From the NCBI RefSeq assembly GCF_000003815.2, contig NC_049981.1, positions 21,973,512-22,037,511 of the forward strand: a stretch of 64,000 nt of DNA. The letters run 5' to 3'. How positions within the stretch are numbered: position 1 is the first letter of the stretch; the number at the start of each line of letters is the position of its first letter. This stretch comes from Branchiostoma floridae. Taxonomy: Eukaryota; Chordata; Leptocardii; Amphioxiformes; Branchiostomatidae. The notes below the pieces were generated by a model. That model was given only the letters and a program-made list of their open reading frames with translations. It did no database searches and was not told the DNA's origin. Positions 1 through 44,900 of this stretch are shown in pieces. A program made the translations under genes and the position numbers.

Positions 1-225
1 AGTACCACAACTCTTTTTCTATATGATCCTATCCAATCAAGAACTAAGCATGTTTGCAGTATCATAGCAGCTGGCACAGAGTACATATCTAAGAGTAAAA
101 TTATACTTAGTCTATAGTTCTGACAGAGGACCTTGAACAGGTATTTCATTTTCAGAGTTCTCCACATTTACAGGTATCATGCATTATGCAGTAAAAGCTC
201 AACATGATGTCTAAAATATGCCTAC

Positions 226-1962: not shown

Positions 1963-2833
1963 GGTGCTGTGTGTAATTGCTAGCGATCTGAAACATAAAA
2001 GTTAAGAATTCAATCAAAGTAGACGTAACATCTTAAGTAGCACATAACAGTAACGTTACACATTAAATCTTTTGAAGTCTTAGAAGCACATATGGATGTC
2101 GCAATGTGGGATAACAGGAAGATAACAGGAAGATCTATAATACTGGCCATAGGTACTGTGGTCCTAGCTAGGACAGGGCCACCCCACATATGTTTCTGAT
2201 AAGGGTTCAATAAAGGGACAGACCCCGGTCTGTCCATCAGCAGTTCTGACCAGGCAAGCACAGAGTGAACGTCTCATCTTATTCTCCCCTACAGAAGAAA
2301 ATGTGTGCAAGGTCATAACAGCAAATATGCCTAGTTACATTATCCAATTACTCAATATGATGCTTAGCCATTGGGAGAAAGACTTTTCATTTTGTTTTTA
2401 CAGTTTTTGATTTTTAATAGGAGAACCAGCAAATTAAATTGGTGTGGCCTAATATGGAAAATACTATTAAAAGGCACAAATTACAAGCTGTTCCTGGTAT
2501 ATGGTATGTACAATATCAAGTTTCCTTCTTTGTATGACACCATATGGCACAATCTGCATATTAAGCACACGTGAGTGTACCGCAAACAACAGGTTTTAAT
2601 AACGCCATAGAAACAAAGCTGAACAAAACCAAACAAATATGTTTGGTCAGGGCATACAAAAGCATTGAACTGTGACCAGTTGACATTTTAAAGATCAATA
2701 AGTTGCAGCCTTATCATTCTAAAGGTTTTTTTTAACTGAGAAAAAATATGGATAATGCCCATTCTATATCTAAACTATATACTTTTTTTAATGTATTAAT
2801 AGATCTGGGACTTCGTCACAGTCTAATGTATAA

Positions 2834-3196
2834 TAGGCCTAGGAAAAAATGTAACAGTTGCATTTCCTGTTTCCCTACCTACCCTAGAAGAACCTGTCAA
2901 CCCTAGACTAGTTTCCAGTTAGTATTTCTATTCAGCCTGCTTCCTATTGAAGTAAAAACACTGTTTGTCCTATCTAAGGAAGGATAGATGTATCCATTAT
3001 GCACAAAATTAAAGTTTGACATTGAAAGACAAGTGTCCTCATGAATTTCAGTTTACTTTGTTTGACTCTATTGTACTATCTATCACTTAGAGTTTTGGCC
3101 AGCCTAAAGAAAATCGAAAGAAAGATAATCCCTACCTTACGACCAATTTCTTCCTGGACTGAAATAGGAAACATACTATTTTTTTCCCTAGGCCTA
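2834..3196 (-). mobile_element. TIR element A (TAGGCCTAGG ends), left-arm copy
   Basis: A roughly 363-bp element bounded by TAGGCCTAGG and its reverse complement, followed by A-rich runs at both ends. No coding capacity. Its counterpart in the right arm is 22977-23346, so it was present before the inverted duplication. A degenerate third copy is at about 39844-40183. Confidence 0.75.
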
Positions 3197-20953: not shown

Positions 20954-22976
20954 TGTATGAAGGCTTGGGCCCTAATGGGATGGGAACCTTCATTCATTCC
21001 TGGTAATCAACAGTAGAAAATCAATTATATGCCTGTCTGTCCTGACAATTTCCATACTTGGTTTAACAGCAGGGAGGAAGCTTTTTGTTTGGGGGAAATA
21101 ATCTATTTAAAACCTTTGGGACCTACAAAATTTCAAGGATGGCTGGGTAGGAGAGAAGTATAGATGATGAAAGGAAAATATTCATACTCTGTGCATACAA
21201 AGGATTTCCTTTTTGTTTGTTTTGGAAACATACCACTGTTGAAAAAAGACTTTGTCATCACCAGAAAAATCCGGGCAAAATTCTGGTTGTTAATGTTATG
21301 CTTAAGCTACCTTAAAGTATGTGGAAAAAATGTGATTTTGAATGTCACTTTTCAACACATAAGTGTATGTTATGCTTCCTTAAGTTCGGGTTGAAGTGGC
21401 GACTATGAAAACCACAAACAAACAAAAACACTGCAAAACTTCAAGAATTACAGTATCTCACTGAATACATCCGGAATATCAAACACCTAAGATGGAGGAT
21501 ACACAAAGCAGTAAGACTGTTTTATGTTTACCAAACTTAAGCATGAAATAAGGCCGATTTTGAGTGGGTCTGGTTCCTTGGCAACTCACAAATTCTCTCC
21601 CACATTTCCTTCTCTGGGGATTTGACACCTGCTCCAGATAGCACCAGGAAGGCTAATTGTGACCTTTTGATAAATGAATGAAAGCTTGGCAAACTCAACT
21701 GATATAACAAAGTGCTGCGATGCAGATATGTCACACAAATGCCAACGGCGGTTGAAGTACCCGAAATGGATGACATTGTTATGCTTTGGTGCAACATGTT
21801 TTCTCAGTGACAGGTGTTTTTTCGACAAGGTTGGAATGCATGACAAAGTTGATTCTATGCAGAAAAGTAACAGAAAGAAAAACACAAAACATTGGAGACA
21901 ACTACTACATGTACCAGAAAATCAATAGACATGTGCAAAGGGTGAAACAGCATTTTTTAAATGCAGATTTTATATAAAAACAACAAAAATAAAAGTACAA
22001 AAAATGCCCTTATTTCTTCTAAAAGACTTGTACATCTCTGCTTTTTCCTCTTATGCTTCATGTTCAAAATTAAAATAGACCCTAAGGCTTGTATTTCTTC
22101 TGTCTGTAACATCATTGTATTGTTGATTGATTTTTGATGTGTTGCTTGTGTACTTAGCTTGTCACTGCTCTGAACTTTGGCAGCATATCACCATCTAAGT
22201 TCCTGTGTTGGTCACTGATTTCCCCATGTGACTGCCAGGTATGGTGAAAGGTCAGATATGACTTGCTGATAAAAGCCCTATTTGTGAACAAGTTTAAACT
22301 TCTGGTCCCAGAGCTTTTTTTCTAAATCAATTCCTGACCTGCCATTTGGATAGTTTCCCATGTATTTTCGAAGTTCCTTCTGATAATCAATAAAAGTTAG
22401 AGCTTTCTAGTAACAGGTACAGCATATTGCAACAGTTTGCTGCTTCAGGAAAGTATTGTCTTGCTTTGAGTTGTATAGAAATTGGGCTACATCAAAGCTT
22501 TTGATTTCATGGTATTATTTTAACGTATGAGTTGAACTTACCAGTTTTGTAGACATTTTCAGACTTTCCCCCAGAAATTATTTACCAAATAATCTACCAT
22601 GTATCTTTTGTGGACAAGAATGTTCTTTTGAACTGTTCTGCTATGGCAATGACTACATATTGTCCATTTGGCACAATGTTCACATGCTTTGTTTTCCATA
22701 AACACTTGGAGAGGAGTCCTGGTTTTGCCATAGCAATGTTAGTAAATTGTTGCAACACTTAGCCCTCAAACTGTTGTATAAAACAGTCGCAGGCACTCTT
22801 TCCTTCTGTAAGCTTGCTCCCCAAGAGCCCCTGTTGCTGAGAGATCTCTGTCAAACAATTTCTCATGTTTCTGACAAGTGTTGATGGTGAACATTATCTT
22901 TGGGTTAGATACCCCAGATGGCAGCATACAGTAGCTGGCAGTTTGTGCTTCCTATCTATCTATCTATCTGTTTGAT

Positions 22977-23346
22977 TAGGCCTAGGAAAAAAAATAGTAT
23001 GTTTCCTATTTCAGTCCAGGAAGAAATTGGTCGTAAGGTAGGGATTATCTTTCTTTCGATTTTCTTTAGGCTGGCCAAAACTCTAAGTGATAGATAGTAC
23101 AATAGAGTCAAACAAAGTAAACTGAAATGCATGAGGACACTTGTCTTTCAATGTCAAACTTTAATTTTGTGCATAATGGATACATCTATCCTTCCTTAGA
23201 TACATGTAGGACAAGCAGTGTTTTTACTTCAATAGGAAGCAGGCTGAATAGAAATACTAACTGGAAACTAGTCTAGGGTTGACAGGTTCTTCTAGGGTAG
23301 GTAGGGAAACAGGAAATGCAACTGTTACATTTTTTCCTAGGCCTAT
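22977..23346 (+). mobile_element. TIR element A, right-arm copy
   Basis: Same element as 2834-3196 in the opposite orientation, with TAGGCCTAGG at one end and its complement at the other. It is flanked by T/TA dinucleotides, compatible with a TA-targeting (Tc1/mariner-like) MITE. That classification is an inference. Confidence 0.75.
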
Positions 23347-23965
23347 TATACATTAGACTGTGACGAAGTCCCAGATCTATTAATACATTAAAAAAAGTAT
23401 ATAGTTTAGATATAGAATGGGCATTATGCATATTTTTTCTCAGTTAAAAAAACCTTTAGAATGATAAGGCTGCAACTTATTGATTTTTAAAATGTCAACT
23501 GGTCACAGTTCAATGCTATTGTATGCCCTGACCAAACATATTTGTTTGGTTTTGTTCAGCTTAGTTTCTGTGGCGTTATTAAAACCTGTTGTTTGCGGTA
23601 CACTCACGTGAGCTTAATATGCAGATTGTGCCATATGGTGTCATACAAAGAAGGAAACTTGATATTGTACATAACATATATTAGGAACAGCTTGTAATTT
23701 GTGCCTTTTAATAGTATTTTCCATATTAGCTAGGCCACGCCGATTTAATTTGTTGGTTCTCCTATTAAAAATCAAAAACTGTAAAAACAAAATGAAAAGT
23801 CTTTCTCCCAATGGCTTCATCATATGAGTATTTGGATAATGTAACTAGGCATATTTGCTGTTTTGACCATGCACAAATTTTCTTCAAAAGATTTAATGTG
23901 TACTGTTATGTGCTACTTGAGATGTTACGTCTACTTTGATTGAATTCTTAACTTTTATGTTTCAG

Positions 23966-23988
23966 ATCGCTAGCAAACACACAGCACC
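23966..23988 (+). other. 5'UTR part of first coding exon, with 3' splice site
   Basis: A pyrimidine-rich tract ending TTTCAG at 23965 precedes 23 nt of leader and then the ATG in the context AGCACCATG, a good Kozak match (A at -3). The same acceptor and leader occur in the left copy. An upstream noncoding exon is implied but I could not place it. A short stretch near 23012-23035 has acceptor- and donor-like ends but lies inside a TIR element. Confidence 0.7.
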
Positions 23989-26900
23989 ATGTTGTGGAGA
24001 CAAGCAGTTGTGCTGGGCATGGTCTGCATTATTCTTAGAACAGGTGAGTTACAATCAGTTGCTTGAGTATCTGCTTTTTGGTGTATCTTGTTACGAGGAT
24101 GTCTAACCTTCATCGATGTATAATCACATCCCTTGGCTGTCCTTAAGGTTGATACTCTTTTACGGGTGCTCTTTAAATCATTATCTTTTCTGTTGTGGAA
24201 TTTTACCTTTTAATTAATTGAACCTTAGAAGGTTTATCTAGGTTTAATTAGAAAGTTCATGTCCGGTCACAATCCGGGGCTAAGTGCAAGTACAAAAGGA
24301 CATAGTAGAAACAATAAGGGGTATAACGTTACAAGTGTCAATGGGCAGTGACTAACATTAAGTGTATTGTAAAAAGAGACTGTAAAAAATACTGGTTTTG
24401 GCTATAACTAGACGGGTTTAGTTTGACTTCTTTTTTAATTCACAATGGCTGTCTCTTTTCAGGTGCACAGGCCAACCAGCCCCCAATCTTCACACAAGGC
24501 ATGGACTATCAGCAGATTCCTGAAGACACAGCAGTTGGTAAGTACAACAACATAAGAACTTGTAGCATGTATGTCAGATAAATATATCAATTTCAATGTC
24601 TTGATGAAACGTCCAACCCCTGAAAGACAGGGAACAACGGACACAAAACCGTATAGTGAGTGAGTGAGTGAATGATGACTGACAAGTTTGTAAGACCAGT
24701 TTTTGATATATAACTTATTACAATTTTTTTTGCTCTTCCATCTGGGTCTCACCTGGATTTTAGTGCAGGGAAGCCACGTGGCAAGTGGAGTAGGTGTGAG
24801 CATTATAACATTTTCCTCACTCTCGGAAACACTATTTTGAAGGCCAAATTGAATGGAATAAAGCCAATTTTAAAACTTTCTTGCAAAGCAACACTATTTT
24901 GAAGGCCAAATTGAATGGAATAAAGCCAATTTTAAAACTTTCTTGCAAAGCAACATAAAAACCCCAATGCTGGTTGAAACACAGCATATTACTAAGGGAA
25001 CCCTCCTCTATGGAAATTACAAAGGATTTAGTGAGCCCAACGATATATGAAATACTGAAAATGAATACCTTCCATGACAGGATCTACCGTGTACACCTTG
25101 AGTGCGACAGACGCAGATGGTGATACTCTGACGTATGGAGTCTCAGGACAAGTCTCCAATAACCTGTTTATAGTTGATCCAAGTTCTGGGGTCGTTACTT
25201 TGAAAACACCATTGGACAGAGAGGTAAGATTAAGACACTTTTCTAGTTAGGTCTAGCTGTGATGTTCTTACGTTGATGTCTTAAGCTTGTTTAAGGCATT
25301 GTTGCTGCATTTAAACCATTGTTTTGTACTCATGAATCCCATTTTGATTAAATGTGACCTGCTTTTAAGACAAAAAAATACCAGACCTTAGCCAAGAAAT
25401 TTATCAAATCATCAAAATGCTGTCTTCATTTCAGCAATGATCCTATGTGTGAATTCTAGTATTACCAAGAAGGACTTGATTATTCTGTGGAATAAGTTTC
25501 AGTCTGCTTAAAAACAACTTTAAGTAGGTAATAGTACAAAATTGCAACAATGCCATTTGATTCCTAACACCAAGTTGAACTGTGTTTCAGCTCACTGATG
25601 AATACCAGATCACTGTAACAGTTTCAGATGGGACAAATCCACAGGTAGGCATATTTTAGACATCATGTTGAGCTTTTACTGCATAATGCATGATACCTGT
25701 AAATGTGGAGAACTTTGAAAATGAAATACCTGTTCAAGGTCCTCTGTCATAACTATAGACTAAGTATAATTTTACTCTTAGATATGTACTCTGTGCCAGC
25801 TGCTATGATACTGCAAACATGCTTAGTTCTTGATTGGATAGGATCATATAGGAAAAGAGTTGTTCTACTTGTATTTTGCAATTTGATAAACATACTGACT
25901 GTTATGAAAGTGTTGTTACTATTATCAATTGATGACTAGAAATGCTTCACTTTCCAAGGTCGTACAAACCCCAACCATCTTCATAACTGATGCCAATGAC
26001 AACAGCCCAGTGTTCCAGGGTATTCCCTATGAAGTGTCTGTCAATGAGGTGAGTTAAAGTGCTGTGTGTCAATATTTGGAGCTCTTGAGTTCATTCAGCT
26101 CAGTAGATTCACAATTAATTAAATGTTTGTAATAAATGGTCATTTTGTCATCAGATATTGGTAACTGTAATGTCTATCTAAGAACATCTCTTTTGAATCA
26201 AATCAGGTAGTCTTTTTCAGACGTGAGTTTCTTATTTGGCAATTTGGATGGGAATGTAATTAATTAGGTTCTTGTCCTTTTGTTTGTCAGAGTGACGTTT
26301 CACAAACCAGCATATTCAGGGTGACGGCAACTGATGCAGACCAAGGGATTGGTGGAACTGTGTCATACTTTCTAGAGGTAAGTTACTGGTAGTATAATAC
26401 TTTTAGTTCCCTTTTAGATTTAGAGAAAGAGAGAGAAATGTTTTTTGGATTAAAACAACTTTTTCATCACAGATGGCTCACTTTCGGTTTCTTGCAGCAG
26501 GCAAAAAAAAAGGTTTAAAAAGATGCTAACATATCAAAATATGACATGGTCATCATAATTGATAATTAATTAACATATTTGACTAGTAAATAAAAACATG
26601 TTATGACTTTAATGACAGATATAGGATAGCCACACAAATTACTCGTCTACGTTAGATGGATTTTTCATGACGTAAAACATAGTTGAGCTATTGAAACGGT
26701 CATTTCAAATTTGTAATTTGTTCCTTCCATACCAGGCTGGAGATGAATCAAAGTTTGAGGTTGACAGACCGACTGGAGTTGTGAACTTAAAGGAGGAGCT
26801 GGACTATGAAGAATCATCTGTTTATCAACTTCGAATCAGAGCTCAGGTAAGAGTTGTTCGCCATACCATCTTTTCAATACATTTTAATTTACTTTGGATA

Positions 26901-29900
26901 CATGGCGTTGCTTTTGTTAACTGCCATTCAATCTGCTCATGTCTAACCCAAGTGCCCGTCAACTTTTAGCCTTCTACTGGTATTAAATCAACTTAAGTAT
27001 ACTAGCCCCAATCATATATAAACTTAAGGTAAATGTTACTTCTCATTGAAGAGCCTGTGGCCAGATCTGTAGCTTCCAACTTGCAGTTTTGTATGGGCAT
27101 GAACGTCTGAATAAGCAATATATAAATAATCATATATTTCTTCTTGTTCAGGACGGAGGAGGCAGCTACCAGGGAACCCAGGTTTTCCAGAGCAGCACCA
27201 CTGTACTGATAGTGAATGTTGTTGATCAAGATGATCAGCCTCCTCTGTTTCTCGGGCAGCCCTTCTCAACACAAGTGAACGAAGACACTCCACTGGTGAG
27301 ATGTTTGTTCACTTATAAGCATATTTACCCAGGAGCTGAAGCAGTAATTCAAAGAGTTGAAAGTTCACTAAGTTCAAACAGTAATCTTCCAGTTTCAGCT
27401 GAAATGTTCTTAATCTTTAAAATATAAAGGGAACTTGGCATTGACTTCAACACCTCCTTATTTTGGATGTTTATTGCTTAGTTATATTTGGGGACCTAAT
27501 ATTCTTGGATGAGTACATGTTTAATTATTCACAGTACTTATACCTTTGGGAGCTTAATGACCTTCCTCGATAACAGCTGTCAACTTCAAGTTTAAAGTCC
27601 ACTCCTGTTTCCCCTAGGGTACATCCATTATAACCATCAATGCTCGAGATGGGGACTACGGCATCGATAATCCAATCGTTTATTCCACAGAAGGGGGTAA
27701 GTTTGATGATCTTTCTTGTCAAAGCTCCTATTTTCTAGCATGTAGGTGTTGTACACAGGATCCTGCTCTGTATATTGCCATTTCATGATGGAGTTGATGC
27801 TTTAAACTTGAAAAAAGCACTGTAGTTTTTTGGAGCACATACATGTATGGTGCACACAAGGATAGACATCAAATCATGGAAATACAGTGTGAGAGGCATT
27901 TCAATCAAGGCTTGCAAACTAGTTCCTACAAATCATTTATCAATTTACAGTTGTACCTTCCATATGGGATATAGGTTTGATTTGCAATAATTGTCTGTTT
28001 ACTAAGATCATGACAGTCTAGAACACTCCAGTAAGGTGTAGTTTGCTTGACTGACTAGTGCTTCTACATTTGTATTTCAAACAAACCTTTATGCTGTTTC
28101 ATCTTCCACTCCAGATGATGGCACCTTCTCCATTGACTCCATCACTGGAGTGATCAGTCTTGCTAGGACCCTGGACAGGGAAAGCAAGACAGATGAAGGA
28201 GGGGTCTATAGCTTTGATGTGCAGGTAAGGAACATTCTTCAGGGTAAAGGACTTGCTCATTCAAACTCCCAATCTGAAGTCTTAGTGTCTAAATGGATGT
28301 TTTCGTTCGTTTGAGACTCCTGACCTGGTTGGCATTCTTTGAAAAATAGAATAGACTAGACTATTAGGCATTCTAGGATTCAAATTCAGATCTATTCTCA
28401 GCATATCATTTCTTTATGTGTTACTTGGCCATGATAAAGTTCAATGTAGATGTTCCAAACCCGGTGATAACTTGAGTGAAGGCTACCATAGGATTATTTG
28501 AACACCTTGGAGTGTGCCGAGTGCAACACTGTCAAAAATTCAAGTACTGGATTCAGCCGCTGGAATTGCAATTTTTTGTTGAGGACAACAGATTTTGTGG
28601 TCCATTTTGCATTTGAAACATGTGTCTCTCAGGTGGGTATGGCATGAATAAAATACAAGACAGTCGGTCCCAGCCCTCCTTCGGCCAATCGGACCAGAAT
28701 GCAACATGTTGTATTCTATATTTTCTAAATGTTCAAATAGTTAGGCCAGCATAACATACATTACCTAAGCATGATGTGCCATACTACATCAATCATCAAC
28801 CTGTATGATAATTTTATATGCATTGAGTGACACCCTAAACTTCTCTCTAGGCCAGAGAAAACAGCATTGAAGCCCGGACAACAAACACGAGTGTGCGCAT
28901 CACCGTAGTAGATGTGAACGACCAGATCCCAACGTTCTACAACGGCACCGGAAACTCTCCCCAGAACTACTTCACTGCCACCATTCCCGAGGGCACGTCT
29001 GCAGGAATTCCCCTGGGGGGTCTGGACATGAGGGTGGAGGATAACGATGAGGTAGGAAACTGGACGTTTGACTCTGCAGAAGATGGTTTCTATCAAACAC
29101 TGTTAACTAGGTTTTTGAACATTCATCACTAACAAGTGACCAGTGTTCAAGCCAGTCTGAATTTTTTCCCGTCCCCTTGACTTTGAATTTGGAAATCCTG
29201 TCAAGTGTCGAAGGTGCAGTGATCCTAGAGATGTCTGGGGGCATGCTCCCCAGGAAAATTCTGAAATCAAGACCTTCTGAAATGCTATTTCCGGCATTTT
29301 GAGGGGCAAATTTTGCTGGTATAAACTTTGCTTGGTTCAATTGCATCTGTTTTGGTATCTTTACATGCCGATTTGTGTCCATCATAGAGGATTGAATGGG
29401 CAAAATTTGTGTCCGTCCCCAGCAGCAAAATTCCGTCAAAAGATGGAAGGACAGATGTTGGCTAGAACCCTGCAAGTGACCCTGACATTAATCCATTTTA
29501 TGAAGCATCTGAGATAGTCCTCAGCTGCAAGTGCATTAGAGTATGTAATCAGATACGCTGGACAAAAGTCACCTGTGCCACTCATTAACTGTCATTGCTT
29601 TAAAGTCGTCCATTGACACATGGAGTATTGACACATGGAGTATGTTATAGACTTATCAAGCAGTACATGTCGGTGGATGTTAACTTTCAGCACCAAGGAC
29701 AGGATGCACTGAAAGGAAAACTAGCAATTTCAAAAACAGGGTTGTGTCCGTTAGAAGACTGGTCTGATGACTGGCATTGGCTTAAAAACTGGGATGTGAA
29801 AGAGTTTTGTACATGAAGAACATTTACCATCATACCACTGGTTTACATCAGGCACCTCAGGCTCCTTTAATACAAAGACTATGCTGTTCACCCAATCCTT

Positions 29901-32900
29901 TACTCACTTGGTCCTCAGGAACACTGTCTATTATATCTGTAAAGATTCATTAGATCTGTTGCAGCTGTAGTTGAGGAAAAAATTGCCTTTGATGAATATC
30001 AATATAATGATGACTGTACTTGATTTGTACATTCTAACAAGACAAAAATACCACAGACTCAACTTTCAGCACCAAGGACAGGGTGCCTGTTGGTGATTTT
30101 ACCCATTGTGCTGCAGGAATAGTATCTGTTAATCCAGTATAGTGTTTCGCCTAGCTTGCTCTGGACATCTAGAATAATTCTGACACAATTAACAATATAA
30201 AAATGGTATTCAATGCTTCTATTGATTTGATGCCAAATGCTGGATCCAGCCCATGTTTTTGGAGTATGTATTCTTGGATGGCACCTGCTGATGAGAAGCA
30301 TGTAGCCACTTCTCATTTGTTTCCTATACCAGATATCCTCATGACCAATTAGACATAGTGGATCATCACATAGATGATGTGTTGTGAATCTAGAGTAGAA
30401 ATAACATTTTTGTCTTGTTTTCTTTCAGGGTGACAATGGCCGGTTTACCCTGACACTTGACGAAGAAGGCAGCAGGTATTTTGAGGTGGTGCCGAGCACA
30501 GTTTATGGGCAGGCAGCAGTGAACATCCGGGTCAAGAACTCCAGACTTTTGGACTATGAGACACTGCAATCTGTGCAGTTCAAAGTAAGTCTTACTTCCT
30601 AATATTTTAATGTGCACTTTAGGTTATTTCTCAATCATTTCTTCAAGTGTTATGCCAAAAAGCAGCTACTCAAGCAACTGGATATGATTTTGGAATTGGC
30701 CAGACATTTCACATAGCAACCACTACATTTTGTCAGGGACGGCTAACCTTCAGCAACGTATCTTGAAGTGTTAGTTCTGAGTCTGGTTCTCTGAGTAGGA
30801 CCATTCATACTTGAATAATAGATAGCATAAATATATTCATTGACGAAGTGAAGTTGCTGCCACTACCTAAGATGACTCATAGTAAATAGACTTCAGAAAG
30901 CATTGTTTGTACTTATTTAAGTATAGATTGACATGTTTCATTGCACTACGCCCATTTTTTTTATTGATGTAATGCAGTGCCCACCTGTTGTACTTTCAGG
31001 TGATTGCTAGGGAAGACCTAGCAGCTGAGCATTACAACAGCACTGCCACAGTTCTGGTGACATTGGAGGACACCAACGACAACTCTCCTGTGTTTAACCA
31101 GTCTAAGTACGACCTGTCTGTAGCTGAGAACTCTCCAGACGGGACTGTTGTGGGAACAATCACGGTAAACCTAAAACTGTTTTGTTCATTCATTCAGTAT
31201 TACCGAATTGGTTCAAAGATTTTACACCTGAATTTTGATTCTGAGATGAGCTAGATGACTTGAAAATTTGGTTATGCTTTTTTTTCTCAATACAGGCAAC
31301 TGATCTGGACTCTGGAGAATTTGCAGAAATTGCATACAGTCTGCAAGGCAGTGGAAGTGAAAAGTGAGTTGATTTGCTCATTTCACTTGAAGAGCATAGC
31401 AACCTGTAGTTCAATTGGTAGCAGTTGAGGTCCTAGGTCCAGTTAGTCAGTTCAAATCTTGGGTAGGGCAATTTGGTTGGGGTTGTACTCTTCTTTTGAA
31501 AGGGATGTAATATGGGCGTCCAGTGTTTGAGGAGCTACCTAAAGTACTCTAAAGGTAAAGGGCTAGAAAACACTCCTTGTAAATATATACCCTGCTTCTA
31601 AAAGTAAAACAGCAAGGAAACGTGCTGCCCTATGTGCCACTATGCACTACATGATGAACCACAGCAACAACAACATTGAAAAACTGTACTGTTTAGAGCC
31701 TCTCAACTCCTTAAAAGACATGATAGCTTTGTGTGAATGTCACTCCACAACTTGAGCTTGCTGTGGGGTTTTGAATTTAGTTCACAGAATACAATACATA
31801 TTTTTCTTCAGGTTTGCTGTCAACAATCTAACAGGAGTGATAACAGTTGCCAAGGGCGATGAGTTGGACAGAGAGACCATCCCATTCTACTTCCTCACCT
31901 TGCTAGCAGAGGACGGAGGGGGCCGTGCCTCCAACGTGCAACTTCAAATCACCCTATTGGATGTCAATGATGAAGCACCTACTTTCCAGCGGTCGTCCAA
32001 CAAAGTCTATATCCAGGAGGATGCTGCCGCATTTGACGAGCCCTTGCAAGTTCTGGTACGTGGACGGTACCTTTGGTCTTACTGTCAGCACTCTGACAGC
32101 CAAGGATACATAAGAAGACATAAAGAAACTTGCAGTCAGAAAAAAAAGACTACAAGGGTTCCTTAGCTATGCCAATACTAGGACCTAATAGAAATGAAAA
32201 TGAAGTTATCAATGTCTTTTTTTTGCCTGTTTGTTCAATGCAAGGCCATTTGACGACTATTGGGCAATGAAATAAGTTGATATATGGTGAAAATTATTAT
32301 GCAGGAGATAGCAGTGAACACTGCTTTTGAAGGCTTTAAGATTGTNNNNNNNNNNNNNNNNNNNNNNNNNNNNNNNNNNNNNNNNNNNNNNNNNNNNNNN
32401 NNNNNNNNNNNNNNNNNNNNNNNNNNNNNNNNNNNNNNNNNNNNNAAGAAGCTGTTGCTGTAAAAGGACTTTGAGACAAGAAGTCGAACACAGTTATAAT
32501 GATGCAAGCTAGAGGAAAAGCTATAGTGTTACACTGAAAGGCTATCAATGGAGGGACATGTAGTGTGGGATCATCCAAGCAATGTCCATGGCCATGAAAT
32601 TGCCAATAGAAAAGAGACAGGGAGTCAATATTTTGCCTGTCAATGAGGGGATCCAGCTTTGATGCCAACTGATGGCCAATGTCTGATGCCAAGATATGAT
32701 GCTTGTAAGAATTTGTTCTAATTTATTTACAATCTTTTTTTACCCATAGGCTGTTGACAGGGACGAGGGCACAAACAAAGTCATCAAGTACTCCATTATT
32801 TCTGGAAATGACCACGACAACTTCACCATCGATGAAGACAGTGGTGTTATTGACCTGACACAGCCACTGGACTATGAGGCACTCGGTGGTGGGGATGAGT

Positions 32901-32977
32901 TCCACCTGGTAGTACAGGCTAAAGATGAGGGACAGCCACCCTTAAACTCTACAACAACTGTCATTGTTGTTGTTGAG
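23989..32977 (+). CDS. CDH23-like: CDH23-like exons 1-16: signal peptide and EC1-EC6
   Basis: Coding exons: 23989-24043, 24463-24537, 25081-25223, 25591-25644, 25959-26048, 26291-26377, 26736-26846, 27152-27295, 27618-27696, 28115-28224, 28851-29051, 30429-30584, 31000-31164, 31296-31363, 31812-32055, 32750-32977. The first coding exon has its own 3' splice site (AG at 23964-23965), so at least one upstream noncoding exon exists. Approximate domains: EC1 23-127 (LDRE at 88-91, linker DANDN), EC2 128-238 (linker DQDDQ), EC3 239-345, EC4 346-467 (DYE instead of DRE), EC5 468-571, EC6 572-679 (DYE). EC4 shares with human CDH23 EC4 an unusual stretch just before its DYE motif, which supports one-to-one correspondence of EC1-6. 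The N gap at 32346-32445 lies in intron 15, and exons 15 and 16 join in phase across it. Confidence 0.88.
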
Positions 32978-35900
32978 GTATGTATTAACACTAACCACTA
33001 CATAACAGGGCTCATGACTGTAACTGAAATGGTCACATTTGTGACAGACATAACAACTGTTTGTCTTGATCTGAAATCACTATCTCACAGTGAGCACATA
33101 TAAAATTTAGCAACATGGAGATAGTGGCCAGAGTGGTTCTTTCCTATTTTTCCCAATGACTTTCCTCAAATTTCTTGAAATTTGTCAGGTTTCCAGGCCA
33201 GCCTGTCGTTTTCCAGGATGTGATTTGTCCTATAACATTATTGTAACTTTTCCCATTATATTATTTTCATTAGGACATAAACGACAACGACCCCTTCTTC
33301 CTGGAGGATATGGTGAATACCACTGTGTCAGAGGCTGCTGCAGCTGGTAGGCCTGAGTGTGATCCTCAATCTCTTATTCTAGAGCAGAGAAAGCTCTGCA
33401 GATGAATATTTGTATGTGGCATAGTGATGGCATAATAGTTAGGGTGTTTGGCCTAGAACCTCCAGGTTCTGGGTTTGAATTCCCTGACGTACCACCAATG
33501 TCGTTCCCTTAGAAAAGGCACTTAACATACAATAAACTCCTTTAGGTTAATCACTACATTATCTACTGTAAATGCATTAAGTTTGTGGGGATTTACTTTC
33601 GCAGTAGCGGGACATACAGAAATGTTCGCGGTGGTTTTAAGTTCGCAGTAGCACCATAGACTGCAGTCTCATACTTTATTAAAAAATGTTTGCGGTGGTT
33701 TTAAGTTTGCGGTGCAGTAGTCACGGCGAAAACCACTAACATATAACCACTGCAAACATTTCTGCATTTACAGTATCTATAAGTACTTTACGTTTGGAAC
33801 CGCATCTGTAAGCAGCGCCACCTATGCTGCAGTGCAATGTAAATCAGTTAGAATTATCCCAAGGAAGGTGACAGACAGTCACTGAAATGTCGGTTTGAAT
33901 AAAACATTGGTTGTGTAAAAAGGGTCTCTTTATTCAATGATCAGTTGAATAAATACTTTGTTGTGTACAAAAAATCTTTTTATTCCACATGGTTAATCAT
34001 TTCTTCCCTTTGCTGTCCAGACACGTTGGTGGTAAAGTTGAATGCAACAGACGAGGACAGCGGTTTCAATGGGAGGATAGACTACCGCATCGCTTCAGGG
34101 TCCAAGGACAAGTTCTACATCACCAACGATGGGGAAATCAAGGTAAAGCTTTTAAAAAAAAGTTGTGTTTCCTGTGACTGGAAAGACTGTAGCCAAAAGC
34201 TATTAGTCCTAGCCTTTTATGGTCGACCACTAGCAGAAGCACTTGTGATAAACCAAAATATCACAGTGTCCGGACCACCTGTATTGAACGTTATCATGGC
34301 CCAGGTATAACATAATGATTATTACTTGCAATTCCTTCAGGTGTCACCAGGGGGCAGGGTTCCCTTGGATAGGGATCTATACGGGGACGGTTACACGCTC
34401 ATTGTCACCGCTACCGACCGCGGAAATCCCGATCAGAAAACAGGCACCGCGACCGTCTTCATCACCATCGAAGACATCAACAACAAGGATCCGGTTTTTG
34501 TTTCTTCGGAGAAGACCGACACCCTGCCCGAGTACCCTAACACCACGTACCCATCCAAACTGGCCGACATGCCCGCAGTGGACTCTGACATAGACAGCAG
34601 TCTGGAATACACGATAACGTCCATCATGGCACAAGATGAGAACGGACAAGTTGTGACCGTTGGCTCCAACTTGTTCAACATCACCAGCAAGGGAGAGGTG
34701 TGGGTGAATGGGGAACTGGACAGGGAGTTTGCAGAAGACTATGTTCTAAGGCTGGAGGTTAACGACACTGCAGCACCGTGGCCAGGGGAGCAAACTGCAA
34801 CAGGTGGGTAGAAGGTTTGAACTTTGATGTAAGGATGGAATTATCTCCAGCAACAAAATAGATAAAATGCTTTGAAAATTTAGGTAAGGTCAACAACAAG
34901 AGAAATTAGTACATCAAAAATAAAGTTCTGTTTACAAAATTTAGAACTTTGAATGTAAACACTTTTACAATGTTTGAAAAAGGTGGTCATAGAAACCATT
35001 GCTTCTAGGCAATGTCTTCATAATGCATATTTTCTTATTTTCAAAGCTGGATCAAATTTTACTTCAATCAGGGCTGTCTCCAACACCCGTTCCTCCACCC
35101 CAGGACAAAGATTTCCTTGCTGGGACAGACAAAAATTTTACCCCATCCATCTAAAGCATCTGAAATCCATGACATAAAAATTTTGTAAGCTCAACGTGAC
35201 AGATTTAACAACAAAAATTAGGCTCCCGTACAAAGTCAGTGGTCAGATAGACAAAAATTCAAAGCTGGAGACACCCCTGGTTTCAATTCCAAATTTTCCA
35301 ATTTTTTCATACAAAATCAAATTGTAGTTCTAGGCTTACTGCATGATACTAAGTGCCATTTTCTCTAACATTCTCTGATACTCCCCATGCCAGCGACCTT
35401 GACGATCATCCTCCAGGATGTGAATGACAACGCTCCGAAGTTCAGCAGCGACGAGATCGAACAGAACATCCAGGAACAGCTGCCCATTGGTCAGCTTTTG
35501 GCCACCATCACCGCCAATGATCCCGACAAAGGTCCCAACGGTGAAGTGATGTTCAGCTTGACTGGCACCAACCTTCTGGCCATAGACTCTTCAACAGGTG
35601 AGTCCTCTATTGTCATGTAGAAAAATATTATATATTTTATATATGTAAGAATATATAAGGTCAATATAAGCCACTTTAAAAAGTCACTGACATCTGACTC
35701 ACTCTATGACTTCAAGCTACTTGAAGGAGGTTCTATTAGATTGACCAAGCCATTTTCTAATGAATCTGAGGTTCTGAACACATTCCTATAGCACAACAAC
35801 ATTGTAATCAATGAATATAGCTAGACAATGTAGACAAATGTATATATTCACTGTATTGTGTGAAGAAATGGCCCAAGCATTAACGTTTTGATCATCCTGA

Positions 35901-38900
35901 TCCTACAATAGAGGTTATTAATGAGCTATCAATAACTGATAAGTTTTGATTACATTTTGAAGGACAAATCAAGGTGAACAGCACCATTGACAGGGAATAC
36001 GGTCAGTGGCTCAACTTCACCGTGACAGCAAAAGATGGTGGCAACCCACCCAAGTCAACAGACAAGTCTTACAACTGGAGGGTTTCTGACACCAACGACA
36101 ATGATCCAAAGTTTGAGCAACCATCATACAGTGGGGAAGTGTCCGAAAATGCAACAGTGGGAACATCTGTGTTGACCGTGACAGCAACCGACGCAGATTT
36201 TGGACAATTTGGAGCTGTACGATACTCTCTTGTTCCAGTGGATAGCAACTTTACTATCCATCCAGACAGAGTAAGTATTTGGGATTGAACTCTTTTCTGT
36301 ACCTAGCCACAAACAGTATTTTTCACCTGAAAACCATCCCTGTCACATATAGGCCATACTTTGTACCTTGTACAATTGTTGTGCAATAAAGTTATTATTG
36401 TAAGCAAGGCTCGGGCGATTGCCACAGAATCGTCGTCCGATCAATTTTCGCCAAATGTGACAGGGGTATAATTTTACAAGGCCTTTTTTATTCAATTGTA
36501 TGGATAGAATTATTTATAGTATCTTCTTGTGTTACAGTGTTGCTGGTATGTCAATGTTGAAAAATATTGTTTCTTGGTCACTTAATGATGAACCTGTTCA
36601 TCTACAGGGGGAAATTTCAGTGGACGGCAAGCTGGATCGTGAAATGGAGGAACAGGTTACCCTGACAGTCACAGCAACTGACAATCCTGGAGGGAGTGAA
36701 AACAACCAGCGGGAAAAATCTGTGGAGGTGTGCCTTTCTGTATATCACCAGGTCCTGTTATATGTGTAACTTTGGGGGGGGGGGGGGGGCAAGCACCACC
36801 AACTGAAAGGTCTAACTGGTCCAGACCTTTTAGCCTACCAGTTAGTGTATTGGCTTTGGGAGCTGGTGGGNNNNNNNNNNNNNNNNNNNNNNNNNNNNNN
36901 NNNNNNNNNNNNNNNNNNNNNNNNNNNNNNNNNNNNNNNNNNNNNNNNNNNNNNNNNNNNNNNNNNNNNNNNNNNNNNNACACAAATCTGCTTTATTTTT
37001 CCTTCTAGGAATGTATAAGAAGTAAAGCCAAGATGGCAGACACAGTATAGAGAATTGCTTACTTTCATTCCAACACAAAGATAATGTAGGGACTTACCCC
37101 TAAATTTTCGGTTGATCTCCGTCGACCTTGTTCACAGAATGACCCTTTCTCACTCCAGCAGTGACGTCAGGAAGACACCACTTTTGCAGGAGGGGGTCAT
37201 AAATATCAGAAATGGCATACACAGTTTAACACAGTGCCACAAAGGCATGCAGTTTACTGGGTATGCAATACAAATAAACAGCATGGACATGTTCTTAGCA
37301 AAAAAAGGGTTTGAGATTTGTGCAGCTTTACTAAGGTATCCAAAGTGGATATTGTTGGGCATTCACTAAAAAGACTATCTGATGTCATTCATTTACCAGG
37401 CAAATAAAAGTGCTAACATCAACATGTATATGGTATGTATATCTTTCAGATCTCTGTCATAGAAGCACATCTTCTTCAGCCCAGATTAACTCTATGTTTC
37501 AGGTGACTATAAAATTGCTGGATGTAAATGATGAAGCTCCGACCTTCTCCCAGAACATTTACACTGAGTATATCCAGGAGGATGAGGTTGCAGGAACTTC
37601 CATCATCACTCTCCAGGCAGTGGACAGAGACTCAGCTGGCCCCAACAGTCAGATAGAGTACACCATTTTGGCTGGGAATGAAGGTAAAATTCCCTGTTAT
37701 GGTAGATAGTTACCAGTCCTATAAAAGCGTGTAACTTTGTGAATAATGAAGACTTCTTTTCATGACACTGGTTGGTATCTTAACTCTCTGCACCAGTGTT
37801 CAAATTGTCTTATACAAATGGGAACAGTGCAGTCTAAATTCTACAATGATTTGACTTTGAGTTCTTGGTTGTCTACATGTAGAAGATGCTGATAGAAATA
37901 AGACACTATTGTACTGAACAAAAAATAGACTGATATCTGCCTCACCTATAAGTATCAAGTTTGTAGGGTAAGTAGAATTTTTCTAAATAACTTATTGTTT
38001 ATCTTATTTCCAGCTGGAGTGTTCACAGTAGGTCGTGATTCAGGGATCATGACAACATTAAAACCACCAGGACTGGCTCCTGGACAAGATATTAATGTGA
38101 CAGTACTGGCTTCCGACAAGGGCAGTCCTATTAGGTCCAGTACCACCATTGTTAGGGTCAAGATCCTCGACACCAACGACAATGCACCAATCTTTGTCTA
38201 CCCTGCAGCCAATGCCTCAACAACTGTCCTCGAGGTAAGGAGGATGGCCGATGGTTTTCTCCAGTGTAAAAAAAAATTAAAAACCTTGTAAGAAAATCAG
38301 GTAGCAGTATTCTGAAGTTCATTTATGGTCACACCATGAAGCTGAAGCAACATTCTTCTAAAAGTTCTATATTCATTTCTTAATCATCTCAATATCTATG
38401 TGAATCTGCAAATGATGATTGACCCAAAGGGGGCTCAAAAATTCATTTTTGGGAGTAGGTGCATCTTTAAGTCACCGTTAGCAGTGACATCTATTTGTAA
38501 GTACATAAACAATGTCAGAATTACCCTGGATGGTAACGGAAACATTGATCTTAAACACTTATATGTACAAAGTGCTTTGTGATCCATGTGGCTTCATCAT
38601 GTGACTTGCCAACCGGATTAAACCACTCACTGACGTTATTTCTGTAGAACGAGCCAGTTGGTACCTTTGTGGTGAGAGTGCTTGCCACAGACGAGGATGA
38701 GGCACAGAACGGGAACGTGACGTACTATTTTGACCCCAGCGATGAATACAACGGAGACAGGGCTAACTTTACCCTGGATCCCATCAGTGGTAACCTCACA
38801 ACAAAAGTTGTCCTGGACCGAGAGGAAAAGGCACAATATGTGGTAAGTACGGCTGCAGTGCTACCAGTTGCTATAGCTCTTATAGTTTGTCTTAACAGTT

Positions 38901-41900
38901 CGCTGGAGATGTTGGCCTTGTACGGGGTGTACTAATCCTGTTGCCCACACCTCTCAGATCTCATTCTGTTTCAAGTTTGACAAACACAAACAACAATGAG
39001 ATTTATATCTGTGTGCATAGCTGAAAAATAACTTCATTTTGCCAACCGACCTGCCTTGCCCAAAGTTTCCAATACCTTGCTGACAAATCATGACTTTTTT
39101 TAGGTAGCTTATGACATTCTTAGTTAATTTTTTTTCTGCTTACACCCTCTCTTGTTTTGCAGCTGTACATTCAAGCTAGGGATGCAGGCTTCCCCCCTCT
39201 GACAGGGGCAACTGTGATAAGAGTACATGTGGGGGATGTGCCCGACACTGATCCTGTTTTCAAACCTCAACTGGATCCTGTGGTAAGTATTTCTTTCTTC
39301 CTTTCATCTCCATTGTCATTTCTAATCCACAAATTGCAAAAAAATAGATTGAATGAAACTTAAGTACAGTAGAAGCCATTTAATTGTGATGCGCTTTTTA
39401 GCAAAAACTGCCAAATTGCAAAGAATTGTGAAATCCCAAACAGTTTCCAATTGTATATCAAACCTCATGTTGGAAAGCCCAAACTGGCTAATCGGGGGAA
39501 AAAAATTGGAAATGCAACACATTGCACCAAAAGTATGCCAAGAATTGTCAAGAATGAGCCGACAACAACTTGTACAAATACAATACTGCCAAACAGATCA
39601 AGGTGGTGTGTTTTAAGATGCAAAAGAGGTCAGTTTCTTTTGAAATTTACGTTGATAGCTCCGGTTTGTATGTAGACACAGTCACTAGACCTGTCCATGG
39701 TGCTGAAACTCAGGTGCCTTTTGCAGGTTTAAGGGGAAGGACTAGCAGCCCCTTCCTGTAAAAATACACACCTCTACAGAAACAGCTAGGAAACTTGATG
39801 ATTACTGTGGCACTAGGCAACACACTGTGAACAACATGAACAGCTTAGGCCAAGAAAAGACAAAAAAACCTGCCGACCCTAGACATTTTTTGAGGGGTCA
39901 TATAGCTTCCTGTTAGAATTTTTATTCAGCCTGCTTCCTATTGAAGTAAAAACACTAATGAAGGCTATAAGTATCTATTATACACAAAGCTATAGTTTGA
40001 CATTGAAAGATAAGAGTCATCATGTATTTCAGTTTACTTTGCTTAACTGTATTGTAACATGTATCAACAGAGTTTGGGGCAGCCTAAAAAATTAAAAGAA
40101 AAAAAGATAATCCCTACCTACCGACCCTATTTTTTTCAGGACTGAAACAGGAAACACAACATTTTTTTTCCTACGACTTATCTGTTTTGTATTGTTCCTC
40201 AGACAGGTGAAGTTGTCCCCCAGACGTTGACTGTTGGTGAGAACCTCGTCCCCGGAACTGTTGTTGGCTTTGTGCTGAACGCTTTCGATGCTGATGAGGG
40301 AGCTACAATATTCTACTACATTGTTGGTATGTAATTATAACACACACACTTGTATAGAGTTGATATGATGAACTAAGAAGTATAGAAATAAGATAGCACC
40401 TTATTTTTGTAATTTTAGTTCAAAGGACCAAAATGTTTAAGATCATACAATGTTTTTTTTTTAAATCCTCATGAAAACTTTGACGTAACAAGGAAAAATC
40501 ATGTATGTAAAGATTGTACTGTTTGTTTGCTTTGAGGAGATCCTGCTGGAAACTTTGACCTCAACAATGGAAAATGAGAATCATGTTTGTTAAGATTGTA
40601 TGATGTTTGTTTGCTTTCAGGAGGGGATCCCAACGGATACTTTGACCTAAACAAAAACACAGGAGAAATTAAAACAACAAGAACATTTGACAGAGAAGCA
40701 GAGGCAAGCTACACCCTGGTTGTAAAGGCCAGTAATAATGCGAGTTACAGCGTTCCAGGTTAGTGCACAGTTTCCTTATGAATGTTCAACTGTGATGGTA
40801 ATCAACATTTTAAGAAGTTTACATGATATCTGAATGAACAAGCTTTCAACCAGTCCTCTGGTCTGTCTCTGGTCAAATAAACTTGTTGGCATATGAATTT
40901 CTTATGATAATTCACAGTTTACGGCTATCATGGGAAAACGTAAAAAGAAAAAAAAACAGCATCATATTTATATTATTGTATTATTTAGTTTTGCTATGTT
41001 TCAGCACGATCTCATTGGGACTGCTAGTAGTTCACAAAAGACGAACCTCTTATATGTTCCAACAGGTGGCAGCAGGAGACGGAAACGGGACATTGCATAC
41101 GACCCAGCAGATCCGACGTTACAAGAGGTTATCATTGAAATTGGAGACCAGAATGACGAACCTCCAAGGTTTACCAAGAAAGAGTATACAGCAGGTAAGG
41201 CAGCTGTAACTGCACAATTCTGGTGATGTTACAACTTTGAGTAGGAATGTAGACAAGAAGGACATTTTCTTTGCAATACCGAATTCAGAATTCGTGTAAC
41301 CCTCTTCATACCACACGAAAAAATCAAGAAAAGCAATTGCGCAAAACTTGGTCACCTTGCTGCAAATTACGTTAATAAGATGCGTCCATGTAGGTTAGAC
41401 ATCCAGGTAATAAGATACACCAAAAAGTAGTTACTCAAGCAACTGAATATGATGGTTTTCCATACAAATTACAGGAAATCAAAATAGACTGCCTATGCCA
41501 TTTGAAAACGAGGCTAGCAGGTCCTCACCTTCAATCTACCACACCAAGAAACACCTTTCTCCATTGTTCCAGTTGTATGTCAGGCATTATATGTACAACA
41601 TTTGAATCTTCCGTCTTTCTTCATTCCGTTCAGGTATCACAACAGAGTTCAAGTTTGGAGATGCTGTAACTGTGGTGACGGTGAGTCATTCACAGATTTT
41701 ATTCTTCCGCTGAATTTTCCTAATGTTCTGTGTTACCCTAAGTTTTTATTCTTATCTACGTTAAACTTTGTGTCTGAAATTTACAGTCAAATCATCAATT
41801 ATTGAGATGAATGAAAGATTCCCAAATATTCAAATGAGTTTGTTGTGCTCACTTTAGGCCATTGACCCCGATGCTGGCAACAACAGTGTGGTGACCTACA

Positions 41901-44900
41901 CCATCACCCGCCAACTCTACTTTGACAGAGACAGTGAGGGAAACCTCATGTCCACACCAAAAGATGCAACGGGAACCTTCAACATTGAGTCAGACACAGG
42001 CCAAATTGTGACGGGAAAGGTGTTCAGCAGTGATGAGAAGGGGTACTACACCTTGAACGTCTCTGCAAGGGACATTGGTGGCCAGAGTGACAATGCCTCA
42101 GTTGAAGTGAGTTTAAGTACTGTAGGATTAACTCTTACAGTTAGACGGGCAAAGGTTAGGCGTGATAGGTCGTTCAGTGTAATATAACAAGCTGCTGTTA
42201 TACAGTGTGCCTGCAAAGCTGGTGATTGACACTGAATGGTGGGTATACGAGCTATGTAGATGCAAAAAGTGCTTGTGACACCAATGGCTCCAAACTGAAA
42301 CTGTGTTACATTTCCTATATTCAAAAGAGTATTACTACATATGACATATTTTTTAAACACCCATCTGATGTTAGTGATCATTTAGCCTTACAAATCATAC
42401 TAAGTCTTCCAGTTCTTGTACATCAAAATTATTCCAAGACATTACTGTAAATAAAAGTGAACACAGTAGATGGGTTGAAAACTGACACCCTGGTTTACAA
42501 AAAATATGCTTTTGAGTACCAGCTTCCATGATGTCCATTCACATGATGTCCAGTTGAACTTGATTTTGAAAGTAGATTTTTTTTGTTAAGAGACTAGTTT
42601 ACAAGATACAAGAGAAACAGAGAGAAACAGTTTTGCTTTACATGTCCAAAAAAATTTAGTCCCTCTTGCATAAACCTGTCTGTAAAAGGGGAACTTTTTG
42701 CAATTGTTGTCTTTATCTTGAATTTTTGTGTCCAACACAGATCTACCTTCTGCGTGAGGACCAAAGGGTGAAGATTGTGTTCCAGAGGACTCCTGATGAA
42801 GTTAGAGCATTCAAGGATGAATTTGCTGCGTAAGTATATTATAGGTTTAGCTGTCAAACAATGAATTCAATATTAAGGTTCAAATTTTAATGTATAACTT
42901 ATGTGCAGATTATTCATAGATAAGTAACTGTTACAGTACATTTATACTAACAAGATAAAAAAACACAGAACATTTCGTAACCTCAAAACTGAATCATAGC
43001 ATATAGGAAATCCTAGATACTGTGAATCATATTAGAATATTTGTGGTGGTTTTGCGTTTGCTATTTTCACGTTGAGAGTGAGGTGCTGTCTTGTAAGATT
43101 GTTTTATTATGGTTGTTTTCACCCAAACTTGAAATACTCAGTGAAATTCAATATTTTTTTCTACTACTGAGTCTGTACAAACTTCAAAAATATTTTCAAC
43201 TTTTACAAGTTATTATATGTGTATTGCAGGCTTCTGTCCAACATCACTGGGGCCATCATCAATGTAGATGACATCCAGTTCCACACAACTGACGACCAAC
43301 AAACAGATGAGTTGAGGTACATGTAGTAACCCATGTCTCATCTGTATACATGCACACTGTGTTTTATGTAATAATTTCTCTTCAACGTGAACTGGATAAG
43401 ATACGGATATTACTTCCTGTTGTCTTGAGTGACATCCATCACTCTTCCTCAGGTTCACTAGAATGAACTGGCAGAACAATCAAGATGCAGCATGCAAAAG
43501 ACTTGTTAACCAGTTCATGATAGAATACCTTAAAGTTTGAAAATGTGTTCAAGATATAGGCACTTTTTGCATAGAAGCTTTTAGTATTTAACAACATTAT
43601 GTAACTATATGCAGGAATCTTCCCTTGAAGCCATCATTTTGTAGAAATAAAGCACTTGACTCATTGCTAACCATTATGTCAAATGTTATCTTTACAGGAC
43701 AGACATGTTCATCCATGGAGTTGATAGAACAACTGGCCTCATCATGGACAAGGAAAGACTCATCGAGTAAGCTCCATTTGTTTGTTTGTTTAATTGAACC
43801 TTTGTTTATTCATGAAAGCTCAAAACATACATACAAAGTGACAGTAGAGAGCAAAGAATAGGACTTAATTCCTTATTACAGTCTTATACTTTGCTAATTG
43901 TTCCCTGTGTTGTTCCACAACTGTGACATTCTGTACATAGTTGTGTACCTACTGTACGTAGTAAAATACCCGTTATCCTTCCAGGCTAATCGACGCAAAC
44001 TATGAGTTCTTGGTGCGTCTTCTACGGGACTACAACGTGGTTGAGTACCAGGTAGCCGTGCCACAAGTGCAGGACGTGACCTACGATAACCTGATCATCG
44101 CGATTGCTGCGATGGCCGGCATCCTGGTCATCAGCATCGCTCTCATCGCAACGGTCTGCGTCTGCTGGACAAGCAGGTGAGATCTCACTTAGATATATAA
44201 ATATTCCATATTTGGTGCTAACTACCACAGCAAGTCCAGGTGCAAAGATATGATACAAAACGTGCTGCTGCAGTACCAAGGTCAACCAACAGGGGGCCCA
44301 AAGTCGACCTACACCATCACCAACCACCCACCTATCAAACCACCATTGCAAACTTTCCAGCAGTTCTTGAGATATATCCCAAATAACCTCCAGAGTGAAA
44401 ACAATATGGTATAGCAATACTTCCATCTTCATAAGTACTAATTTAAAGAAAGACAAAATATAGGGTAGTTCAGAGAAATGGTCATAGTTCCAGAAAAGAC
44501 AAAGCAGACGGCAAAATTGATGATTTGAAAAAGATGATTTGAATAAACTCCGCTTATGTTTTCAATAGACCAATACCCCCAGCAGTATTACAATAGGCCA
44601 ATTAAGTCGTTTTTTGGGAGGGACAACAAAGATTGGGGTCCCATGTTTGGCACGTTAAAGTGAAGGGCTAGCAACCCCTCCCTGTAGAAATATACCCTGC
44701 TTCTGAAACAGCAAGGAAATTTGCTGCCATAAGGCCTAATCAAGGAGGTTAAAAATCTTAACCTTTAACCTCCTTGGCCTAATATAAGGGTCTGGATGTA
44801 CAAATGACTAAACAAACTGAACAAAATAGTTCATGTACAGTCATTACATGTCAGTCACACATGAGTGGCAGCTGCCCGCAAGGATTTAACCTGATATTAC

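Follow-up and report, generated by a model that had tools for sequence, protein, structure and literature searches.

A 14-repeat amphioxus cadherin groups with human CDHR2, apart from a separate long CDH23 in the same genome

The stretch of Branchiostoma floridae DNA analysed here (the window; 64,000 nucleotides of contig NC_049981.1, C3 below, at C3:21973512-22037511) carries a complete cadherin gene whose 14 extracellular cadherin (EC) repeats follow the types EC1-6 and EC20-27 of human CDH23. The gene groups with human CDHR2 (PCDH24) against CDH23, and a separate long CDH23 lies elsewhere on the same chromosome. The window gene is probably a CDHR2-side (PCDH24-type) member of the CDH23/CDHR2 group, nearest among vertebrate genes to human CDHR2, rather than an orthologue of CDH23. 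An earlier note on this DNA, made from the letters alone, had presented the gene as a short CDH23 that might have lost 13 repeats. Because the same genome holds a separate long CDH23, that headline is set aside here and a CDHR2-like gene preferred. The note's milder option, that the locus keeps a short form, holds in the sense that this is a gene of its own.

On the forward strand the gene runs from an ATG at 23989 to a stop at 47683, and an exon-by-exon model gives 39 exons, every junction GT-AG, with a single open frame from signal peptide to stop. The protein of 1856 amino acids, as predicted earlier, consists in order of a signal peptide, 14 EC repeats set by 13 linkers (A1-A14 below; the repeats of human CDHR2 are R1-R9), a membrane-adjacent domain, a hydrophobic helix recognised by eye and a cytoplasmic tail ending in LETTEI. 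A profile search matches it to Pfam Cadherin. Exons 2-16 (24463..32977) encode EC1-EC6, exon 2 also holding the end of the signal peptide. Exons 17-19 (33274..34803) encode A7, of EC20 type, and most of A8, of EC21 type; exons 20-31 (35394..42106) complete A8 and continue through A9-A14 (EC22-EC27 types), and exons 32-39 (42741..47683) encode the membrane-adjacent domain, the helix and a tail with the motifs PGTN..NPM, SLDDNEVDV and LETTEI. A membrane-adjacent domain behind the last repeat is a feature of CDH23 that the window gene possesses. In a PDB search the Cadherin-23 chain 8tri, which covers residues 2579-3030 of our human query (EC25 to the membrane-adjacent domain), matches window protein residues 1213-1676 with 324 bits, and the membrane-adjacent part gives a weak match to Pfam PCDH15_12th that stays under the cut-off. 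Two near-identical partial copies of the start of exon 36 precede that exon at about 44900-45222, and a genome search with the window protein from EC27 to tail gave extra matches to the exon 36 region at C3:22018416-22018570.

The correspondence of repeats was scored by global BLOSUM62 alignment of 14 x 27 repeats, corrected for general similarity. The human CDH23 ectodomain query was checked by PDB search; it is gapless against Cadherin-23 chains over residues 1-320, 534-969 and 1178-3030 (330/330 aligned residues against 5tfm, EC6-8), while residues 321-533 (EC4-5) and 970-1177 (EC10-11) are provisional. A chance motif at residue 2160 was dropped when the human repeats were split. Among 15 single-block registers the best places A1-6 on EC1-6 and A7-14 on EC20-27 (raw score 2340, z-sum 41.9), the architecture that had been proposed, with breaks after seven or five repeats as runners-up (z-sum 40.1 and 39.3). 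A free monotone path differs only in setting A7 on EC10 and reaches a z-sum of 42.3, against a maximum of 34.8 in 1000 permutations of the human order. The strong pairs are A1-EC1, A4-EC4, A8-EC21 (z 3.4), A9-EC22, A10-EC23, A13-EC26 and A14-EC27, and the best corrected scores of A11 and A12 are with EC24 and EC25. All five diagnostic motifs named earlier lie in their repeats: TDEDSG.NG in A7/EC20, WLNFTV in A9/EC22, DNPG in A10/EC23, the missing DRE in A11/EC24 and TLQEV in A13/EC26. The stronger statement that the repeats match human CDH23 one by one stands for 10 of the 14 (A1, A3, A4, A6-A10, A13 and A14), which at least one tree puts beside the human or long-locus repeat expected for them, if not always with strong support, and fails for A2, A5, A11 and A12, which the trees do not put where expected. 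The repeats at the join are the least settled: a tree with human repeats alone leaves them unresolved, placing A7 with EC10 and A6 with EC25, and both reach their expected places only once the long locus joins the tree, A6 losing it again in a later tree with CDHR2 repeats. A spliced alignment of human CDH23 to the window (score 2230) makes a single skip, of human residues 672-2069, and EC7-19, a feature of CDH23, is lacking from the window gene. An origin of the 27 human repeats by tandem duplication of a 14-repeat ancestor was considered and rejected (mean z -0.16 at offset 13; 21 offsets tried).

The genome searched comprises 513 Mb in 431 contigs. Its Cadherin family search scored 150 of 605 candidates, from which the loci for study were picked by eye; further relatives may exist. 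Searches by tblastn with single repeats found exons at C3:30.13-30.18 Mb whose best human repeats stand mostly in rising order. These were joined with a self-written spliced protein-to-genome aligner, which was checked on part of the window gene with the human query and returned ten exons there: eight agreed fully with the gene model, and the outermost two were exact at their inner ends. At C3:30125588-30183521, about 8.1 Mb from the window gene, human CDH23 follows a collinear path of 44 exons from residue 187 (EC2) to residue 2807 (EC26) with a score of 4190; a further pair of cadherin-rich loci reach 1963 with 4 skips and 1367 with 2. The only long skip in the path on C3 removes query residues 736-1061, the three repeats EC8-10. 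The sequence examined starts at EC2. On the same strand are weak matches to an EC27-like exon (C3:30191369-30191611, E 6.5e-5, among 24 matches to window EC27-to-tail) and to a membrane-adjacent exon (C3:30192480-30192590, E 0.08); a genome search with the human membrane-adjacent domain matched nothing, not even the window gene, and is hence uninformative. By corrected score the own human repeat is best for 19 of 23 long-locus rows, the EC2 and EC10 fragments counted. The four exceptions are the EC10 fragment and EC24-26; repeats 24-26 look misassigned, and the stretch ahead of EC27 would accordingly be divergent or partly mis-modelled. The separate CDH23 that the earlier note had advised looking for is thus present, from EC2 to EC26 minus EC8-10. 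With EC7 and EC11-19 in a CDH23 context in this genome, neither of the origins offered earlier for the missing block, lineage loss or vertebrate gain, is needed for these repeats, and a vertebrate gain of EC7-19 is rejected as far as they are concerned; EC8-10 lie outside this evidence.

In the long CDH23 three similar truncated tandem copies precede the EC6 exon (C3:30142216-30142929). At C3:30144194-30144901 the gene lacks EC8-10, the last part of EC10 following directly on EC7. In human CDH23 the pair EC7 and EC10 ranks fourth in similarity among internal pairs, as if the three repeats had been gained or lost by unequal exchange. Weak EC27-like matches at C3:24286265-24320703 on the reverse strand mark a further cadherin gene on the chromosome.

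Which of the two genes is CDH23 is answered by direct comparison. Human CDH23 is nearer the long locus than the window gene in all seven of EC3, EC4, EC5, EC6, EC20, EC21 and EC22, and the window gene is not the closest of the genome's CDH23-like genes to human CDH23. In a tree of 62 repeats, from which the long-locus EC2 and EC10 fragments were left out (the tree with CDHR2 repeats also omits long-locus repeats 24-26), human and long-locus repeats form starred pairs for 13 repeats (EC3-7, 11, 12, 15-17, 19, 21 and 22), pair more weakly for EC13 and EC18 and do not pair for EC14. The window repeat lies outside the human and long-locus pair for EC3, 4, 6, 21 and 22, starred only for EC3 and EC22. 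That the window gene is instead the amphioxus CDH23 minus EC7-19, and the long locus something else, would suit the register, the common C-terminal motifs and a C-terminus closest to CDH23, as well as the reversed order of EC23 (window 261, long locus 242) and EC24-26, in which the window gene is nearer human. We regard this as improbable, given that the long locus is the better match throughout EC3-6 and EC20-22, holds EC7 and EC11-19 in collinear arrangement and is the sister of human CDH23. Less probable still is an origin of the window gene by recent duplication of the long CDH23 in amphioxus, with loss of repeats and rapid evolution. The common chromosome would fit such an event, as would two repeats that go the opposite way in the 62-repeat tree, A7 joining long-locus EC20 and leaving human EC20 outside (support 99/86) and A10 joining long-locus EC23 (94/0). 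However, an alignment of 853 columns from EC3-6 and EC20-23 sets the branching point of the window gene at 0.48 of the path length between human and long locus (bootstrap 0.41-0.55), which makes the split old, and the grouping with CDHR2 also speaks against recent duplication.

That grouping is carried by quartets that combine EC3-6 and EC21 of the window gene, human CDHR2, human CDH23 and the long locus. In the CDHR2 query EC1-2 are identical to 7n86 over the natural part of that construct and EC1-3 match 5cyx over 329 residues, while the sequence beyond EC3 is provisional. The quartet, which is unrooted, that joins window with CDHR2 and CDH23 with the long locus wins by 39 log units under LG and 24 under C20, and the approximately unbiased (AU) test gives its rivals 1.7e-5 and 3.3e-5 (LG+G4) or 6e-4 and 1e-3 (C20). 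Each of the five repeats singly favours this topology, by 3.4-22.7 log units. Only EC5 rejects both rivals by itself, and without EC5 the result stands, the rivals having AU 0.003 and 0.0003 (LG) or 0.033 and 0.007 (C20). With other repeats as outgroup, A4 and CDHR2 EC4 cluster at 99/89 and 96/93 in two trees. Among the 62 repeats the best partners of CDHR2 EC2, EC4 and EC5 are A2 (144), A4 (163) and A5 (229). The alignments show insertions in EC4 and EC5 common to the window gene and CDHR2, and both tails have SLDDNxVDV and PGTN..NPM and close on a PDZ-type end, LETTEI in the window protein and LDTTDL in CDHR2. Spliced onto the genome, CDHR2 scores 1094 on the window, 635 on the long locus (its ends missing) and 780 and 631 on two controls; over EC1-4 it scores 498 with the window gene, 483 with an inverted copy described below, 411 with a gene on C2 and 320 with the long locus, where EC1-2 were not fetched. 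In the PDB search window EC1-3 match Cdhr2 5cyx (158.5 bits) nearly as well as the Cadherin-23 chain 5w4t (160.4 bits).

Several results weigh against a place beside CDHR2. Provisional sequence past EC3 and the divergence of CDHR2 make long-branch attraction possible. The best partner of CDHR2 EC1 is EC1 of human CDH23 (190), ahead of that of the window gene (159), the form of the EC5 insertion also occurs in EC19 of CDH23, and one tree sets CDHR2 EC7 beside EC26 instead of EC20. In its C-terminal half and membrane-adjacent domain the window protein is nearer CDH23 than CDHR2 (C-terminal local scores: window with CDH23 367, window with CDHR2 134, CDHR2 with CDH23 77), A10-EC23 and A13-EC26 being strong CDH23 matches, and the membrane-adjacent domain of CDHR2 is far more divergent. 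Single-repeat AU tests leave pairs of window and long locus standing (0.17-0.38 for EC3, 6, 21 and 22), and a small EC4 tree already holds such a pair at 82/0. A7, as noted, sides with long-locus EC20 and not with human EC20. Human CDHR2 has 9 EC repeats against 14, and the window gene lacks the vertebrate CDHR2 form of nine repeats and a membrane-adjacent domain, MAD10; with its 14 repeats it is filed as a CDHR2-side gene and not as PCDH24 itself.

A further relative bears on how close to CDHR2 the gene stands. At C2:10595001-10625000, on the reverse strand, the window protein aligns at 39% over 22 exons (score 985), with exon borders equal to those of the window gene through EC1-4. Past EC4 this C2 gene has a repeat that fuses the first part of the fifth with the second part of the sixth, at least one more repeat and a short tail. 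When EC1-4 of C2 are included, the three best of 15 topologies all set window, CDHR2 and C2 opposite human CDH23 and the long locus, which supports a window gene on the CDHR2 side. Within that side three arrangements compete: window with C2 has AU 0.80 under LG and 0.83 under C20, window with CDHR2 0.40 and 0.40, and CDHR2 with C2 0.13 and 0.29, and of the other twelve topologies a single one exceeds 0.05 under C20 (window with C2 and CDHR2 with CDH23, 0.06). The window gene may be an old third paralogue of the group, perhaps together with C2, that is older than or parallel to the split of CDH23 from CDHR2 and was retained in amphioxus but lost in vertebrates. The whole-gene trees are unrooted and would give the same quartet for such a paralogue as for CDHR2 orthology, window with C2 is the best topology, if not significantly so, the C-terminus is CDH23-like, and rooted EC4 tests leave this history standing (AU 0.19 and 0.24). 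Against it count the one extra duplication and the loss that it requires, the outgroup-rooted cluster of A4 with CDHR2 EC4, and the common EC4 and EC5 insertions and tail motif. The presence of the C2 gene on the CDHR2 side slightly lowered our confidence in CDHR2 as the closest vertebrate relative and slightly raised that in a third paralogue, which we still consider unlikely, if clearly less so than either history built on CDH23. CDHR2 remains the preferred vertebrate counterpart, with strict one-to-one orthology conjectural.

The join of EC6 to EC20 falls, as had been noted, at intron 16/17 (32978..33273), which is 296 bp long and free of N; exon 16 (32750..32977) encodes most of EC6. The span singled out earlier, 32750-34803, is limited to the stretch from the larger part of EC6 to the larger part of the eighth repeat, and an assembly gap of 100 N that lies within EC6, in intron 15 (32346..32445), went unmentioned there. 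The only other run of N within the gene is a 109-N gap in intron 22 (36871..36979). That exons of EC7-18 might hide in the gap of intron 15 was weighed and rejected. The exon 16 fragment is not EC19-like (human EC6 159, EC16 158, EC19 78) and A6 as a whole scores best with EC6, both that of the long locus (178) and that of human (175). In the neighbouring inverted copy the counterparts of exons 15 and 16 are parted by a 148-bp intron without N, so no exon need sit in the gap, and this gap-free copy suggests that none does. CDHR2 seems to cross the join in the same manner. Spliced onto the window (17 of 29 exons equal to the gene model), its EC1-EC8 fall on A1-A8 in order, with EC6-EC7-EC8 in register across intron 16/17, before the path strays beyond A8; taken singly, CDHR2 EC8 fits A8 (z 2.6) and EC7 is not closest to A7. 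Given this one-to-one order, the EC6-to-EC20 join looks like a CDHR2-side trait common to the window gene and human CDHR2. By z-score CDHR2 EC9 is closest to A14/EC27, and human CDHR2 seems to have kept the join and to have lost A9-A13 since. The history we propose is that the join belongs to the CDHR2 side and that human CDHR2 would then have lost further repeats past EC21.

The inverted copy is a paralogue that stands head to head with the window gene. Its exons 1-4 occupy 1..1962 on the reverse strand and the gene runs on to the left of the window; from window position 1962 to C3:21964775 it has 21 exons and no N. The right arm of the imperfect inverted repeat spans 21966..30601 on the forward strand, with exons 13-16 matching further, to 32979, and the left arm runs from window position 4218 back to 1 and continues leftward beyond the window, in blocks of 78-96% nucleotide identity. 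The paralogue encodes 825 amino acids. A signal peptide and EC1-6 are followed by a short linker exon and, up to the stop, by some four EGF-like stretches rich in cysteine that were recognised by eye (Pfam EGF at 730-759). No membrane helix was seen by eye, and a secreted EC1-6 and EGF protein is predicted. Over exons 1-12 the two genes differ by a synonymous divergence (dS) of 0.14 and a non-synonymous divergence (dN) of 0.02, a ratio suggestive of purifying selection. Between the copies identity is 95-99% in introns 1, 4-6 and 8-10, 92-93% in introns 3 and 11 and 77-84% in introns 2 and 7, and, in forced alignments of unlike lengths, only 71-82% in introns 12-16; this distribution fits gene conversion in the initial part of the arms. 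Exons 3 (25081-25223) and 10 (28115-28224) are each 90.9% identical between the copies, below intron 4 (98.1%) and intron 10 (97.7%). Speculatively, the pair could form a two-gene unit of a 14-repeat membrane cadherin near the CDHR2 ancestor and a secreted EC1-6/EGF paralogue, held by purifying selection with partial gene conversion, the secreted member tuning the links of microvilli or stereovilli in the role of a soluble partner or a decoy. We consider this unlikely.

With CDHR2 the window protein has in common the register of the first eight repeats; with CDH23 it has in common both blocks of repeat types, the membrane-adjacent domain, the membrane helix and a PGTN-like tail motif, whose counterpart in human CDH23 we take to be PNTN. 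It differs from CDH23 in repeat number, 27 in human. An EC repeat measures about 4.5 nm, and the 14 repeats of the window protein, stiffened by calcium, would form a rod of roughly 60 nm anchored by its single membrane helix, with a putative PDZ-binding tail for harmonin-like scaffolds. The passages of PMC8691648 on PCDH24 describe it as most similar to CDH23 (EC1-MAD10 against EC1-MAD28) and as pairing with CDHR5 as CDH23 pairs with PCDH15; these two partners were compared here through PDB and Pfam match lists only. By analogy with these pairs, the EC1-2 tip may bind a partner on a neighbouring microvillus or stereovillus, and the protein may serve as a microvillar or stereovillar link. The echinoderm study PMC10734073, in the sections drawn on here, reports CDH23 in all deuterostomes examined, and neither those sections nor the corresponding ones of the anemone study PMC3899209 give an invertebrate CDH23 repeat count. 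Our literature search found no paper that treats both CDHR2 and amphioxus.

If the window gene is indeed a CDHR2-side gene, the split between CDH23 and CDHR2 would date to the base of the chordates or earlier, and the short rod of CDHR2 would descend from an old EC6/EC20 join followed by further loss in vertebrates. A long CDH23 of the tip-link type, with about 24 repeats here and EC1 not seen, would be older than vertebrate ears. Genes of invertebrate chordates described as CDH23-like may be relatives of CDHR2, which would call for caution in taking the presence of CDH23 as evidence of tip links.

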